54,752 nt of DNA, from the NCBI RefSeq assembly GCF_004337705.1, contig NZ_SKBU01000038.1, forward strand, positions 1 to 54,752, in the 5' to 3' direction. Origin of the DNA: Rubrobacter taiwanensis (GTDB taxonomy: Bacteria; Actinomycetota; Rubrobacteria; Rubrobacterales; Rubrobacteraceae). Positions 1 to 54,640 of this stretch are shown piece after piece (position 1 is the first letter of the stretch; each line of letters begins with the position of its first letter). The notes beneath the pieces were generated by a model. The model searched no databases. It saw only the letters and a program-made list of their open reading frames with translations, and was not told the DNA's origin. The translations under genes and the position numbers were made by a program.

Positions 1-648
1 CTAGAAGAAGGAAGAGGAGGCTACAGGCCCACGCTCTCCCCTGATGTGGCGTGGAGCTCTAGGGGATACCAACACCGCCCTGAGCTCAGGCGTGCTGAGG
101 CTGAGGAGTTGCCGCAGATGTTTGTGGAGGAGCTTGAAGCGCTGGGGGGGCATGGGGTAAGGGTTGGGAGTCTCGAAGAGGCCAGGGAGTACGTGCTCTC
201 TTTAGCCCGGGAGGTAGGGGCGAAGCTGGTTATAAGGTGGGATGAGCCCTACCTGGAGGAGCTTGGGGCAGATGAGCCGCTAAAGGAGGCTGGGGTAGGA
301 GTATCTGTATGGGGGGAGGGGGAGGATGCAAGGGAGCAGGCAGCCCGCGCCGACATAGGGCTCTCTACGGCCGAGTATGCGGTGGCCGAGACCGGGAGTC
401 TGGTGGTGTGCAGCGGCGTTGGGGCCGGGCGCAGCGTGACGCTTCTGCCGCCGACCTACGTCGCCGTGGTCCCGGCGGGGCGGGTGGTCTCCGGGGTGGC
501 GGATGTGATCCGGGCATACGCCGGGCGGGGTGAGCTACCTTCCGGGCTCTGCTTCCACACCGGCCCCAGCCGCTCGGCAGACATCGAGCAGTCGCTGGCC
601 ATAGGGGTGCACGGGCCGGGGGACGTGCACGTGGTGCTGGTGGGGTGA
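1..648 (+). CDS. lutC: LutC/YkgG-type LUD-domain protein, 5' partial
   Basis: The protein belongs to the LUD family, whose LutC members work with iron-sulfur partners LutA/LutB in L-lactate oxidation. The frame is open from base 1, so the true start probably lies left of the window. The first internal start is GTG at 46 (200 residues), but the residues before it (RPTLSPDVAW) also look like LutC N-terminal sequence. Family-like stretches are STAEYAVAETGSLV and GPSRSADIEQSLAIGVHGP near the C-terminus. The stop overlaps the start of yqeC by 4 bases. Codon use changes inside the gene: before about base 345 most arginines are AGG/AGA and many codons end in A/T, after it arginines are CGC/CGG. Family assignment is firm; a role with lactate is inferred. 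Confidence 0.8.
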   Translation, partial: LEEGRGGYRPTLSPDVAWSSRGYQHRPELRRAEAEELPQMFVEELEALGGHGVRVGSLEEAREYVLSLAREVGAKLVIRWDEPYLEELGADEPLKEAGVGVSVWGEGEDAREQAARADIGLSTAEYAVAETGSLVVCSGVGAGRSVTLLPPTYVAVVPAGRVVSGVADVIRAYAGRGELPSGLCFHTGPSRSADIEQSLAIGVHGPGDVHVVLVG

Positions 649-49556: not shown

Positions 49557-50462
49557 CTACCCGCCCTCTATCCGGGAGAGAACCTCCAGAGTCCAGGTCC
49601 GGATCACCTCCTCGAAGCTCCGCACATCCCCCGCCTCCACCCGGCTTTCGGCGCTGCTCCACACCAGAGCGGCCAGGCTTACGGGGCTGGCCGCCAGGAT
49701 ACCGGCGCACGTGCCGAGCTCCAGCCGGTCCACGTAGCGGGCGAACCGCTCGCGCCCGGCGGGGCTCCGCCCCGGAGGGCCGATACCGAGGATGTGCCAC
49801 CTCCCCCCCTCAAACCCCCACTCCAGCCGCACCGGTCGGCCCAGCACGGAGCGGGCTCTGGAGATCATCCGCTCCAGCTCCTCCCTCCCGGGCCGCGCGA
49901 GGCAGATCTCCGGCGCGCGGAGCTCCGCGTCCGTCCAGCCGGCTAGCTCCGGCCGAAGCTCCTTCTGCACGAGGACCGGCCATAAGGGAGGCTCCCTGCC
50001 GGCAGCGAGAGCCCGGATCTGGCGCTCAAGCCCCCGCGGCGCAAGCCAGGCCGCGCGCACGGCGTCTAGGATGTCCGGGATGGTACTCAGATCGCCGCTC
50101 CGGCCGTACTCAGAGAGCACAAGGGCGCTCCTGGCTCCGAGCTCGGCCAGCGCCTCACACAGCGCCTCCCTTATCTCGTCGCTCAGAGGCGCAGCGGGAT
50201 GCCCGCGCGCCTGAGACCGGAGCGCCTCTGAAGCGGCCCCGGCGAGGCGCTCCCTGAGGCCGCTCTCCTTAAGAAACCTCGCGTGCGCCGCCCGGGTGAG
50301 CACCACTCCTTCGGGCACCGGCAGCCCGGCGCCCGCCAGCCGGTCCAGAGCTCCTACCAGACCGGCGTCTCTTCCGGCCGCCCCTTCCCCGAGAGGCCGC
50401 AGAAGCTCCCCGGTTACCGGAGGGCGCGGCCGATGCCCCGAACCCCTCAAGCCGTTCTCCAT
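49557..50462 (-). CDS. Degenerate PEP-synthase/PPDK-like protein
   Basis: 301 residues. LDRLAGAGLPVPEGVVLTRA and ARFLKESG match the start of pyruvate phosphate dikinase/PEP synthase ATP-grasp domains, and RLEWGFEGGRWHILGIGP resembles their VEWA-x-LQARP end. The region between is short and lacks the full ATP-grasp, and there is no phosphohistidine or PEP domain. So it is likely a regulatory or binding remnant, not an enzyme. It follows the coiled-coil gene by 26 bases. Confidence 0.6.
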   Translation of the reverse strand: MENGLRGSGHRPRPPVTGELLRPLGEGAAGRDAGLVGALDRLAGAGLPVPEGVVLTRAAHARFLKESGLRERLAGAASEALRSQARGHPAAPLSDEIREALCEALAELGARSALVLSEYGRSGDLSTIPDILDAVRAAWLAPRGLERQIRALAAGREPPLWPVLVQKELRPELAGWTDAELRAPEICLARPGREELERMISRARSVLGRPVRLEWGFEGGRWHILGIGPPGRSPAGRERFARYVDRLELGTCAGILAASPVSLAALVWSSAESRVEAGDVRSFEEVIRTWTLEVLSRIEGG

Positions 50463-50488: not shown

Positions 50489-50866
50489 CTACCTCTCCCG
50501 GCTGAAGATGAGCCACGAGCCGCAGATCTCTCCCGTCTGGCGGCCGTCCACCCCGCCGGGGATCACCCGCACCAGCCGGCCGCCCTCCGCAGCGAACCTC
50601 TCCAGGACCCTGCCGGCCTCTCTGGAGTGGACGACGAAGACCGTCCCCTGCTCCCCGCTCACCTCCTCGAACGACCTCTCCTCGCCCTCCTCGCGGCTCA
50701 ACGCCTCCCTGAGCAGCCTCTCGCGTTCGAGCGCCTCTTCCCAGAGCCGCTCTCTGTTGGCCTGCGCCTCCGCCTTGTGGAGCGCGTCCTGCCGACGCCA
50801 CTGCTCGATGCGTCCTTCTATCCTGTGCAGCAGGTTCGCCACCGGGGCGGGCTGCATGTTCATCAT
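50489..50866 (-). CDS. Small coiled-coil hypothetical protein
   Basis: 125 residues. Residues about 12-65 form a charged helix/coiled coil rich in Glu, Arg and Leu (RLWEEALERERLLREALSRE), followed by a compact alpha/beta region (GTVFVVHSREAGRVLERFAA, RLVRVIPGGVDGR). I do not recognise it. It lies 23 bases after the tandem Usp gene and looks co-transcribed. Confidence 0.6.
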   Translation of the reverse strand: MMNMQPAPVANLLHRIEGRIEQWRRQDALHKAEAQANRERLWEEALERERLLREALSREEGEERSFEEVSGEQGTVFVVHSREAGRVLERFAAEGGRLVRVIPGGVDGRQTGEICGSWLIFSRER

Positions 50867-50889: not shown

Positions 50890-51813
50890 CTAGGCTGCGG
50901 GGCTCCGGCGGACCACCAGAACCGGGCAGTGCGCGTGGCGCACCACGGAGTCCGAGACGCTGCCCACGAGAGCCCGGCGCACTCCGCCCAGTCCCCGGCT
51001 GCCCATCACGATCAGGCTCGCCCCTAGCTCCTCGGCCTCCTCTACTATCTCCTCGTCCGGCTCGCCAAAGGCGACCTTAGCCACGGCGACCTCCGTGCCC
51101 GCCGCCCTCATCTGCTGAGCCTTCTCCTCTATGAACGAGCGGGCCTTCCTCTTGGCCTCCTCGACGTAGCTCTCCCACCCCTCGATCAGAACGGGGGGCG
51201 TGTACGGCTGCCGCTCCGTAAGCGGGAGCGCGTACAGGAGGTGCAGCCCGGAGCCGCTAGCGGCCGAGATCTCGGCTGCCATCCGGGAGGCGGCTTCGGC
51301 CTCCCGGGAGCCGTCCACAGCGACCAGGATCTTCCCCGGCAGATAGGATTCGTTCTGCGGCTCCCCCCGCACGACCAGCACAGAGGTGTGGGCGTGGCGC
51401 AGCACACTGATCGAGACGCTACCCACTAAGGCGCGCCGCAGGGTTCCGAGGCCCCGGCTACCCACAGCCACGATCTCCACCCCCAGCTCTTCCGCAAGGC
51501 GCACGATCTCCGCGTCGGCGCGCCCCACCGCCGCATGAACACCCGCCACCTTCACGCCCGCCTCACCAAGCTTCGCCGCCTCCTCCTGCGCCCGCTCCTG
51601 CGCCTCGGCCCGCGCGCGCTCGAAGATCTCCTCCAGCATCCCGGGCTCGGCCAGGGACCACTGGTTGACGTAAGCCTCCGGAACGGTTCTCACGTAGATT
51701 AGGTGCAGCTCCGCCCCCAGCGCCTCCGACAGCTCCCGGGCCATCCCGGCGGCGCGGCGGGCCTCTCCGGAGCCGTCGGCCGCCAGCAGCACCTTCCTCG
51801 CCGGACCATCCAT
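50890..51813 (-). CDS. Tandem universal stress protein
   Basis: 307 residues with two UspA domains (about 1-148 and 155-305). Each has the ATP-binding end motif: VAVGSRGLGTLRRALVGSVS and IVMGSRGLGGVRRALVGSVS, followed by a conserved HAHxxVLVVR. Tandem Usp proteins occur in actinobacterial dormancy and low-oxygen regulons. ATG 51813 has AAGGAG next to it. It heads the leftward gene string; the 41-bp element and a CCTTAAG palindrome lie upstream. Confidence 0.92.
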   Translation of the reverse strand: MDGPARKVLLAADGSGEARRAAGMARELSEALGAELHLIYVRTVPEAYVNQWSLAEPGMLEEIFERARAEAQERAQEEAAKLGEAGVKVAGVHAAVGRADAEIVRLAEELGVEIVAVGSRGLGTLRRALVGSVSISVLRHAHTSVLVVRGEPQNESYLPGKILVAVDGSREAEAASRMAAEISAASGSGLHLLYALPLTERQPYTPPVLIEGWESYVEEAKRKARSFIEEKAQQMRAAGTEVAVAKVAFGEPDEEIVEEAEELGASLIVMGSRGLGGVRRALVGSVSDSVVRHAHCPVLVVRRSPAA

Positions 51814-51847: not shown

Positions 51848-51865
51848 CCTTAAGCTCTCTTAAGG
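51848..51865. promoter_or_regulatory. Perfect palindrome upstream of usp
   Basis: CCTTAAG CTCT CTTAAGG, 7-base arms, 34 bases before the usp ATG. Possible operator or 5'-leader hairpin. Confidence 0.4.
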
Positions 51866-51894
51866 CGAACTTTAGACGAGCGGGAGGCTACTGC

Positions 51895-51935
51895 CATGAT
51901 GAGGGCACATCATTCGCATGATCAGAATTGATCAG
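51895..51935 (-). promoter_or_regulatory. 41-bp conserved element, copy 1 (usp)
   Basis: Read on the minus strand it begins CTGATCAATTCTGATCATG and ends CCCTCATCATG. It matches copy 2 (52676-52716) at 32 of 41 positions without gaps, lies 81 bases before usp, and overlaps the stop of the PAS-LuxR gene. It includes TGATCA-n4-TGATCA. Confidence 0.65.
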
Positions 51936-52636
51936 CGGGGCAGTATCCCGAGCTCCCGCGCCCGGGAGACGGCCTCGAGCTGGGAGTGCGCCCCGAGCGC
52001 CTGCAGCACGGCGCTCACGTGGTTTCTGACCGTGGCCTCAGAGAGGTAGAGCTCCTGGCTGACCTCCCGGACCGTCTTGCCCCTGGAGAGCAGCTCCAGC
52101 ACCTCCAGCTGCCGGGGCGTCAGAGCCGGGACGTCCCTACGGCCCGAAGCGGCGGGCCTGTCCCGCTTGGAGGAGATCTGGATGAGCCCGCGGGCCATCT
52201 CCAGCGCCTCGTGGGCCTCCTGCGCGTCGCGCAGCAGGTGTACGAGGTACGGACCGTCACCGCCCTCCAGGCTCAGGATGCTCACGTTCACCCAGCGCTT
52301 CTCTCCCGAGCGGGTGGTGATGCGCATGTCGTAGCTCGAGACGGGCCGTCCGGCCCGGGCCAGATGCATGACCGAGCACCCGTAGGTGCAGAACGGCCCG
52401 CCCCCCTCGCGTTCACCCAGAATCACCTCGTAGCACTGCTTGCCCAGAACCTCCCCGGCCAGAATCCCGGTGAGCGACTCCGCCGCCCCGTCCCAGTGCA
52501 CGACCCTGTAGTCCGGCCCCACCACGAAGACCGCATCCCCCGTGCGGGCCTCGACTATCCTGCGTACCGCCTCGGGCAGCTCATGCACCCCGCTTTCAGA
52601 CCCCATCAGCCGTACCCCGGTGATCTTCGCTTCCAA
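51932..52636 (-). CDS. PAS-LuxR transcriptional regulator with three cysteines
   Basis: 234 residues: PAS domain (about 20-140), then a LuxR/NarL-type HTH (about 168-230, LTPRQLEVLELLSRGKTVRE ... LSEATVRNHVSAVLQALG). The PAS domain has Cys 68 (GKQCYEVILG), Cys 83 and Cys 87 (GPFCTYGCSVM), a cysteine set found in some redox- or metal-sensing PAS domains. There is no receiver domain, so the sensor and DNA-binding parts are in one chain. Start TTG 52636 is close to TAATAT at 52651-52656. It is divergent from doxX. Confidence 0.85.
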   Translation of the reverse strand: MEAKITGVRLMGSESGVHELPEAVRRIVEARTGDAVFVVGPDYRVVHWDGAAESLTGILAGEVLGKQCYEVILGEREGGGPFCTYGCSVMHLARAGRPVSSYDMRITTRSGEKRWVNVSILSLEGGDGPYLVHLLRDAQEAHEALEMARGLIQISSKRDRPAASGRRDVPALTPRQLEVLELLSRGKTVREVSQELYLSEATVRNHVSAVLQALGAHSQLEAVSRARELGILPR

Positions 52637-52675
52637 ACTCCGTTACCCTCATATTACCCCATCTTCCCGGCGGTA

Positions 52676-52716
52676 CTGATCAATTCTGGCCATGTAAATG
52701 GGGCACCCTGATCATG
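52676..52716 (+). promoter_or_regulatory. 41-bp conserved element, copy 2 (doxX/PAS-LuxR)
   Basis: Begins CTGATCAATTCTGGCCATG and ends CCCTGATCATG. 32 of 41 positions match copy 1 in the same orientation relative to the downstream gene. It lies 64 bases before doxX and 39 bases from the PAS-LuxR start. Confidence 0.65.
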
Positions 52717-52780
52717 TCCCCTCACCTCCCCCCTGCTAGCCTCTGAACCGAGACAGCAAGAAGAACGAAGGAGGAAAGAG

Positions 52781-53383
52781 ATGAACGCGGAGGCGAGAAG
52801 ATCCCAGATCCCCGAGCCGAACATCACGCGCTTCCTGTTCGCCGACGCCCGGATGGCCCCGGTGTGGCTGCTGGTCAGGCTCTACCTGGGTATCCTGTGG
52901 CTCATGTCCGGCTGGGGGAAGCTCTTCGATCCGGCATGGACCGGCGCCGAGGCCGGAGCCGCGGTGAGGGGCTTCTCGCAGGGAGCGCTGCAGCTAACCG
53001 GGGGAGAACACCCGCAGGTCACCGGCTGGTACGCCTGGTTCCTGGAGAGCATCGTCATCCCCAACGCCACCCTCTTCTCCTATCTGGTGGTCTTCGGGGA
53101 GATCCTGGTGGGAGCGGCCCTGATCGCGGGCCTGTTCACCGGCATAGCGGCCTTCTTCGGAGGCTTCATGAACGCCAGCTTCATGTTCGCCGGCACGGCC
53201 GGGGCAAACCCCCTGATGTTCATCCTGGCCATCCTGCTCATGATGAGCTGGCGGGTGGCCGGACACTGGGGCCTCGACCGCTGGGCTCTGCCGCTCATAG
53301 GAGTCCCCGGCGCTCCGGGCCCCCTGCTCCGGAGGGAGCGCACCACCGGAGGCCGCGGCGAGGAGGCCGACTCGCAGGCCTGA
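52781..53383 (+). CDS. DoxX-family membrane protein
   Basis: 200 residues with four main membrane helices; LVRLYLGILWLMSGWGKLFD, FLESIVIPNATLFSYLVVFG and GEILVGAALIAGLFTG are typical of DoxX/DoxD. Relatives take part in quinone- or thiosulfate-linked redox and oxidative-stress systems. A strong AAGGAGGAAAG precedes ATG 52781. The tail is polar. It is divergent from the PAS-LuxR gene, with a 41-bp element between them. A hairpin follows it. Confidence 0.88.
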   Translation: MNAEARRSQIPEPNITRFLFADARMAPVWLLVRLYLGILWLMSGWGKLFDPAWTGAEAGAAVRGFSQGALQLTGGEHPQVTGWYAWFLESIVIPNATLFSYLVVFGEILVGAALIAGLFTGIAAFFGGFMNASFMFAGTAGANPLMFILAILLMMSWRVAGHWGLDRWALPLIGVPGAPGPLLRRERTTGGRGEEADSQA

Positions 53384-53482: not shown

Positions 53483-54640
53483 ATGGACGTCACTGCCCGC
53501 CAAGAACTGCTGAGGAAGCTCGGGGAGCGCTTCGGGAGCCGCTGCAAACCGGCCGCCGGGCGCGCGGGGGCGCTGGCCACGGTCTCGCCGGTGAACGCCG
53601 GGGAGGCCGAGTACCTGGCACGCACGGCCCGCCAATACTCCGTAAAGCTGAGCCCGGCCGGAGCCGGCGTGGACCCCGACCTCCCGGAGCCCGCGGGAGA
53701 CATCGTGCTGGTGAGCACCGGCATGATGCGGACCATCCGCTTCCCGGATGACGAACGCGTCGCGGTGGAGGTGGAGCCGGGCGTGCTCTGGGTGGACCTC
53801 GAAGACGAACTCCGCGCCTCGCACCGGGCGCTCACCGTCTACCCCTCCAGCGCACCCCGGAGCACGGTCGGGGGCTGGATCGCCCGCGACGGTCTGGGAC
53901 TCGGCTCCTTCGCCCACGGCTGGCTTAAAGAAAACGTTCTCTGCGCGAGGGTGATCACACCCGCCGGAGAACCACGCACCCTCACCGGCGAAGACCTCGA
54001 CCTCGCCGTGGGCGCGATGGGGAAGAGCGGCCTGATCGTGCACGCCACCCTGAAACTGCGCCAGACGCGGGGAGACCGGCCCTTCGCCGCGACCTTCACC
54101 GCAGCGGAAGCCCTCCAGAACGCCATCGGCTCGCTGCTGGAGCGCCATCCCCCCCTCTGGCATCTGGGCTTCATGAACCCCCCGATGGCGCGCGCCATGC
54201 ACTCGCAGGAGCGGTACCTGATCTTCGGAGCCTACCCGGCGAGCGGGGCCGCTCCGGCCGAGAACGAACTCCTGAAAGCGCTGGGACAAAACCGCGGCCG
54301 GCCCCTCGCCCCCGCCGAAGCCTACAGGATCTGGGGCAGCAGGTTCTTCCCCGTCGTGCCGGCCCGGCCGACGCCGTCCCCGGGCCGGATCCTCATCCCC
54401 GCCTCCCGTATAGGAGCCGTCCTGAATCACCTCCGCAGCATCCCCGGCGAGCCAGCCGTCACAGGCTCCGTCTCCCGGGACGGCTCCGCCCTCCTGCTGG
54501 CGTTCGCAATCTCAGAAGACCGCCTCCAGACCCTCCCCGCCGACGCCGAGATCGCCCTTCTCGGCATAGCACGCACCGTCGGCGGAGATCTCTACCACAC
54601 GATCCTCAAACAGCGCGCCGGACTCTCCCACAGAAGATGA
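53483..54640 (+). CDS. FAD-binding oxidoreductase (GlcD/PCMH-like)
   Basis: 385 residues with an N-terminal FAD-binding type 4 (PCMH) domain: KLSPAGAGVDPDLPEPAG, AVEVEPGVLWVDLEDEL, YPSSAPRSTVGGWIARDGLG and GSFAHGWLKENVL. The C-terminal part is short and lacks the full substrate domain of GlcD or LutC-linked enzymes, so the substrate is unknown. ATG 53483 has GAGAGG upstream. It is the last gene in the window, separated from doxX by 99 bases and a hairpin. Confidence 0.75.
   Translation: MDVTARQELLRKLGERFGSRCKPAAGRAGALATVSPVNAGEAEYLARTARQYSVKLSPAGAGVDPDLPEPAGDIVLVSTGMMRTIRFPDDERVAVEVEPGVLWVDLEDELRASHRALTVYPSSAPRSTVGGWIARDGLGLGSFAHGWLKENVLCARVITPAGEPRTLTGEDLDLAVGAMGKSGLIVHATLKLRQTRGDRPFAATFTAAEALQNAIGSLLERHPPLWHLGFMNPPMARAMHSQERYLIFGAYPASGAAPAENELLKALGQNRGRPLAPAEAYRIWGSRFFPVVPARPTPSPGRILIPASRIGAVLNHLRSIPGEPAVTGSVSRDGSALLLAFAISEDRLQTLPADAEIALLGIARTVGGDLYHTILKQRAGLSHRR

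Follow-up and report, generated by a model that had tools for sequence, protein, structure and literature searches.

The window analysed here, the whole stretch of 54,752 nucleotides from Rubrobacter taiwanensis, contained a PAS-LuxR gene flanked by two similar 41-bp elements, one directed at a string of three genes that begins with usp and the other at doxX (Table 1). The 125-amino-acid protein encoded by the second gene of the usp string is charged and is a conserved member of the string; it gave no Pfam or NCBIfam match. The third gene encodes a free-standing 301-amino-acid PPDK-N-like protein without the remainder of PPDK, and this protein recurs beside PAS-LuxR genes or the predicted operator in several genomes. 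The FAD-binding GlcD-like gene downstream of doxX is probably co-transcribed with it. Domain analysis of the PAS-LuxR protein revealed a PAS domain (about residues 24–137) and a GerE HTH (171–225), while no Pfam match to a Response_reg (receiver) domain could be found. The protein thus has the composition of a PAS-LuxR regulator, with PAS and a C-terminal GerE HTH but no receiver, and both folds could be seen in the predicted model (pLDDT 82.5). The ATG at 52606 may be its actual start codon.

Table 1. Features of the window and further predicted operator sites in the Rubrobacter taiwanensis genome
Feature	Position	Strand	Evidence or remark
Protein with weak PPDK N-terminal match	49557..50462	-	PF01326 1.9e-4, below cut-off; third gene of the usp string
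Small 125-aa protein, no known family	50489..50866	-	Second gene of the usp string
usp, tandem universal stress protein	50890..51813	-	PF00582 1.9e-63; first target gene
Predicted -10 box of usp, TAAAGT	51869..51874	-	21-bp offset; predicted start site near 51862
Predicted operator before usp	51895..51935	-	Profile R2 match E 7.9e-9; leave-out matrix score (see text)
Boxes of the usp-side operator	element positions 2-7, 12-17, 24-29, 34-39		
PAS-LuxR one-component regulator, candidate activator	51932..52636	-	Pfam GerE 5.4e-15, PAS 1.7e-9
Predicted operator before doxX	52676..52716	+	Profile R2 match E 1.5e-11; leave-out matrix score (see text)
Boxes of the doxX-side operator	52677-52682, 52687-52692, 52699-52704, 52709-52714	+	
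Predicted -10 box of doxX, TAGCCT	52737..52742	+	21-bp offset; predicted start site near 52749
doxX	52781..53383	+	PF07681 1.9e-9; second target gene
FAD-binding GlcD-like oxidoreductase	53483..54640	+	PF01565 1.3e-22
Predicted site before PEP synthase-usp-usp	C7:34906		R. taiwanensis genome
Predicted site before usp	C6:272444		R. taiwanensis genome
Predicted site before SHOCT protein and multicopper oxidase	C6:274400		R. taiwanensis genome
Predicted site before narK-narG-narH-(J)-narI	C6:285642		R. taiwanensis genome
Predicted site before second SHOCT gene	C56:68495		R. taiwanensis genome; one-base deletion in site

Recomputed coordinates agreed with the preliminary description, which had reported that the two copies match without a gap at 32 of 41 positions (51935 to 51895 on the minus strand and 52676 to 52716 on the plus strand) and end 81 bases before the ATG of usp (51813, minus strand) and 64 bases before that of doxX (52781, plus strand). 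The overlap of the usp-side copy with the PAS-LuxR stop codon (51932–51934) and an additional TGATCA at 52709–52714 could also be confirmed. When up to three mismatches were allowed, the left block matched twice in the window against an expectation of 0.03, and these two matches were the only ones in the whole 3.0-Mb genome. A scoring matrix trained without any site of the R. taiwanensis genome (leave-genome-out) gave scores of 48.1 for the doxX copy and 41.0 for the usp copy, followed in the window by a third-best score of 11.5, which is probably the reverse-strand shadow of a copy. The top matrix score in three simulated 3-Mb genomes was no higher than 13.6.

The consensus of the pooled copies was tTGRTCAATcyTGAYCAGncgAATGRgcCAncyTGCTCAGG, with conserved hexamers beginning at element positions 2, 12, 24 and 34. 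Comparison of base frequencies revealed that box 1 against the reverse complement of box 2, and box 3 against that of box 4, fit better than direct repeats, while the first pair of boxes matched the second pair directly (r 0.78). Because the boxes match as inverted repeats within each pair and the pairs resemble each other directly, the element is two tandem predicted dimer sites with the half-site yTGRTCAr. A -10 box (TAnnnT) began exactly 21 bp past the element in 69 of the 87 copies, and at any other offset it was found in three copies at most; the stretch in which it was counted lies downstream of the element and was not covered by the matrix. The bases separating the element from the -10 box were not conserved, and no recognisable -35 hexamer was seen in the element promoters. 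Taking the -10 box as -12 to -7, and with predicted start sites, the calculated centres of the proximal and distal box pairs lie at about -42.5 and about -64.5. Since the phased -10 box and the positions of the pairs correspond to the layout of class II activator promoters, in which a dimer site lies over the -35 region at a fixed distance from the -10 box, we infer that the conserved operator would act as a class II activator site.

The element could be found in 16 (profile R1) to 18 (profile R2) of the 39 Rubrobacteraceae genomes, with 1 to 24 copies per carrying genome. The highest number was observed in G006, with 24 profile matches at E 0.01 or better. It recurred at the flanks of PAS-LuxR genes from 10 other family genomes, as would be expected of the conserved element proposed in the preliminary description, and this recurrence across genera together with the fixed -10 box upholds the view of a conserved regulatory site directed at usp and doxX. 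The profile search revealed seven copies in the R. taiwanensis genome, comprising the two in the window and five elsewhere. The proposal of a small regulon could therefore be retained in part: a regulon around usp and doxX is supported, while a local pair is not, since there are seven sites here and up to 24 in relatives. A search of 257 sampled non-family genomes with the full 69-bp model returned only four matches (E 0.004–0.008), which were treated as chance. A nearly identical metal-transport/SHOCT stretch carrying one site was observed at G000:C56:62000-75000 (L192), at the end of G013:C4 (L193) and at G008:C1:864000-874000 (L194). The presence of this C56-like stretch in three genomes of different genera suggests a recent transfer that may have carried the predicted operator along.

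Functional analysis of the genes behind the predicted operator, pooled over the genomes, revealed Usp genes at 22 promoters, FAD-binding GlcD-like proteins at six loci, SHOCT-type small proteins at six, PEP synthase and YgaP-like membrane proteins at four each, and NarK-like transporters at three. Hsp20 was found three times, always without a phased -10 box, and DksA/TraR-type zinc-finger proteins were also among the targets. Relatives of doxX lay downstream of the operator in five other loci (six with the window), and relatives of the 125-amino-acid protein and of the PPDK-N-like protein had their own operator in four and five other loci, respectively. Single-case targets were a proton P-type ATPase, phosphofructokinase (PFK), acetate kinase, hemerythrin, flavodoxin, cytochrome b, a LuxR-type response regulator and PRPP synthase; these deserve less confidence than targets seen repeatedly, because the starts of the target genes were called by a simple script. 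The proton P-type ATPase of G001 (L097:12119-14656), an unusual target of the plasma-membrane type, scored 997 bits against TIGR01647 (cut-off 615). In R. taiwanensis, NarG, NarH and NarI scored above their curated cut-offs, while the NarK matches were below theirs. Sites also preceded or lay close to NarK-NarG pairs in G005, G008, G004, G009 and G020; the closest site in two of these genomes, G020 and G004, was weaker and had no phased -10 box.

A second type of regulator, with the domain order GAF-GAF-LuxR, was found to share the HTH tail of the PAS-LuxR protein (EATVRNHIRALLQALGAHSQLEALARARELGLL-like, tails grouped by eye). The presence of this HTH and of the element was concordant in 36 of the 39 family genomes (14/2/1/22; Fisher p 1.1e-7, a value confounded by common ancestry), and the split was repeated within seven genera. 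Genomes with sites and only the PAS type were R. taiwanensis, G005, G008, G009, G019 and G028, while G001, G007 and G022, which have only the GAF type, carried the same sites. Of the 13 PAS-LuxR loci, eight had a copy on the strand of the regulator gene that started -3 to 31 bp past its stop codon. Outside the family, a half-element of 17–18 bp adjoined both PAS-LuxR genes with this HTH tail, where it sits upstream of the regulator gene itself: CTGATCAATCCTGACCAG lay directly upstream of a Thermoleophilia gene (L034; 0 of 500 shuffles), and GTGATCAATTCTGATCAG lay 266 bp upstream of the gene of G337. Two PAS-LuxR genes whose HTH differs, a small sample, had nothing similar nearby. The exact 17-mer occurred in two of 357 non-family genomes sampled, one occurrence being the G337 site by the PAS-LuxR gene, and a reversed control pattern was absent from all 357. 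The position of the half-element next to non-family PAS-LuxR genes is the strongest predicted link between HTH and motif. The PAS-LuxR protein, named as the driver in the preliminary description, stands far ahead of all other candidates as the binder when the co-occurrence, the HTH common to the GAF type and the non-family half-element are considered, and it is most likely the activator of the element. A mobile origin of the regulator was rejected, as no relative was found among plasmids (E 1e-20) or viral contigs.

Several genomes departed from this pattern. In G010 (98% complete) a single good site was located on a contig of 3.7 kb, and the genome yielded no regulator; G006 (77% complete) had many sites and no full regulator could be found; and the one site of G013 lay in the region nearly identical to C56 of R. 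taiwanensis. In G002 a GAF-GAF-LuxR protein was present while the canonical site was absent, and a variant site followed the regulator gene. The HTH branch of G002 (KQALGARSQLEA) was shared by G023 and G004, and each of the three genomes had a variant site (e.g. TTAGCCAAAAACCGCTAGCGATTTGACAAAAAGTGGCGATG, then 20 bp, then TACATT) after the regulator, at L035:5310-5350 (G002), L036:5291-5331 (G023) and about 60–100 bp after the gene in L167 (G004). These sites follow GAF-GAF-LuxR genes with the differing HTH tail KQALGARSQ and have TAnnnT at the same 21-bp offset. From the three loci we infer that HTH and operator motif would have changed together in this GAF-GAF branch.

The proposal that the PAS-LuxR protein also controls itself did not hold for an oriented site, as none of the 13 PAS-LuxR loci in the family had a copy within 500 bp upstream that was aimed at the regulator, and the copy upstream of the regulator gene in the window aims at doxX. 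A divergent copy upstream of the gene, at 40 bp in the window and 94 bp in G028, could affect the PAS-LuxR gene in these two cases.

Comparison of the predicted PAS-LuxR model with known structures placed EL222 and VqmA among the nearest full-length folds (TM to query about 0.32–0.39, identity 14–25%), and the PAS part resembled the heme domains of FixL and EcDOS (TM to target about 0.76–0.79, about 20% identity). The cysteines of the PAS domain (C-x14-C-x3-C) were not conserved in all orthologues. Heme binding was not indicated, because the histidine of the equivalent F-alpha helix was present in just 4 of 12 orthologues. Since the cysteines and this histidine vary, heme or Fe-S sensing through conserved PAS residues was rejected, and an oxygen or redox signal can be deduced solely from the target genes, which would point to loss of oxygen or respiration.

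Considering what can be read from sequence, namely the element, its conservation and orientation, the fixed -10 box, the targets and the co-occurrence with the HTH, we regard it as quite likely that the element is the operator of an anaerobic or energy-stress regulon of the Rubrobacteraceae, bound and activated by the PAS-LuxR protein. The mechanism proposed here, in which binder, activation and signal are the predicted parts, would involve two PAS-LuxR dimers bound to the two tandem inverted repeats. With half-sites 10 bp apart and dimer centres 22 bp apart, a spacing that places both dimers on one side of the DNA helix, the proximal dimer would cover the -35 region and the distal one would lie upstream of it, and together they would bring RNA polymerase to a promoter that has a good -10 box but lacks a visible -35. 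The PAS domain would sense a signal tied to lost aerobic respiration (oxygen, NO or redox). Within the window, usp-orf125-ppdkN and doxX-FAD would be switched on; the targets elsewhere in the genome would be PEP synthase-usp-usp, a further usp, SHOCT-multicopper oxidase, narK-narGHI and the second SHOCT gene. The same sites would be served in certain relatives by a GAF-GAF-LuxR protein that shares this HTH.

The same activator operator might be served by another binder, such as a NarL/DevR-type response regulator or a Crp/FNR-type protein, with the PAS-LuxR gene being a neighbour or a regulon member. Crp/FNR-type proteins were present in all 39 family genomes, response regulators are common, and a response regulator of G023 with a LuxR HTH itself lies behind a site; TTGATCAA-like halves also faintly recall FNR half-sites, and the elements were slightly nearer to the FNR consensus than shuffles (3.91 against 4.52 mismatches). 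However, the elements fit no FNR, CRP, DevR, OsdR or PimM consensus. The FNR (TTGAT-N4-ATCAA) and CRP (TGTGA-N6-TCACA) operators gave means of 3.9 and 4.7 mismatches, the PimM operator gave 6.95 mismatches in the elements and 6.84 in shuffles, and the best GGGACT- or GGGCCG-type box in the window promoters had 7–9 mismatches, with a DevR mean no better than that of shuffles. The site moreover tracks one HTH type within seven genera, and the half-element outside the family lies beside PAS-LuxR genes with that HTH while missing beside those with another, which makes a different binder unlikely.

The sign of regulation could also be reversed, with a dimer over the -35 region blocking the polymerase until the signal frees it; the proximal box pair does overlap -35, and the data give position rather than sign. 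The fixed 21 bp to a good -10 box, the lack of a -35 hexamer and the two phased upstream dimer sites nevertheless form the usual class II layout, and DevR, a LuxR-type activator, likewise overlaps -35 by binding paired sites cooperatively with the proximal one in that position (PMC3029386). A repressor operator is accordingly rather improbable. As the two similar copies lie only 740 bp apart, they might be thought to result from duplication or to be a mobile repeat, with no role in regulation, yet conservation across genera before many unrelated genes, the orientation, the phased -10 box and the unconserved intervening bases render this extremely improbable, and the leave-out scores and the distribution rule out chance or duplication. 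An operator activated by the PAS-LuxR protein is the reading we prefer.

DevR/DosR of Mycobacterium tuberculosis and OsdR of Streptomyces coelicolor likewise have a LuxR/NarL-type HTH and paired sites. Their regulons hold Usp, PPDK, nitrate reductase and its transporter, hemerythrin and a heat-shock protein (PMC5069765), and a comparable set (proteins of nitrate respiration, heat shock and redox metabolism as well as Usp) was found here when pooled over the genomes. In contrast, the motif here is a tandem yTGRTCA-n4-TGAYCAr, whereas DevR and OsdR recognise GGGAC or GGGCCG palindromes; DevR/DosR is a two-component system with receiver and kinase, while the candidate regulator here lacks a receiver and carries a PAS or GAF-GAF sensor of its own; and DoxX, SHOCT and FAD targets are prominent here. 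The PimM-type regulators of Streptomyces, which are positive regulators (PMC9774167, PMC6448028), similarly combine PAS and a LuxR HTH in a single protein, but they serve antifungal and other secondary metabolism through the operator CTVGGGAWWTCCCBAG, which the elements here do not resemble. EL222 (LOV-LuxR, light-activated) and VqmA (PAS-LuxR) are also one-component proteins with a PAS-type sensor and a LuxR HTH; the overall superposition was poor, however, the targets differ and no LOV photochemistry motif could be seen by eye. The heme PAS domains of FixL and EcDOS are alike in fold, but their histidine is not general in the orthologues here.

A census counted 13 LuxR proteins in Rubrobacter xylanophilus, one of them PAS+LuxR, with no function given in the part of the source available (PMC3466318). 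No literature on a DosR-like regulon or on the element motif in Rubrobacter could be found in a search that mostly covered papers outside subscription. On balance, the findings seem to describe a hitherto undescribed one-component counterpart of DosR/OsdR in the Rubrobacteraceae, in which the same HTH and tandem operator would be combined with interchangeable sensors (PAS, GAF-GAF, or both in some genomes), HTH and operator would have changed jointly in the GAF-GAF branch, and a single-dimer version would lie beside the regulator in other actinobacterial families.

The Rubrobacteraceae are a deep-branching actinobacterial family tolerant of desiccation and radiation. For stress and anaerobic adaptation in this family, the present finding supplies an operator, a promoter layout, a list of targets and a candidate regulator, and it offers a natural series for the study of joint change in HTH and operator. 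A set of genes like that of DosR can, it would seem, be run by another regulator architecture and through another DNA code; the association of Usp with nitrate respiration and energy metabolism may therefore be older, or more convergent, than DosR.
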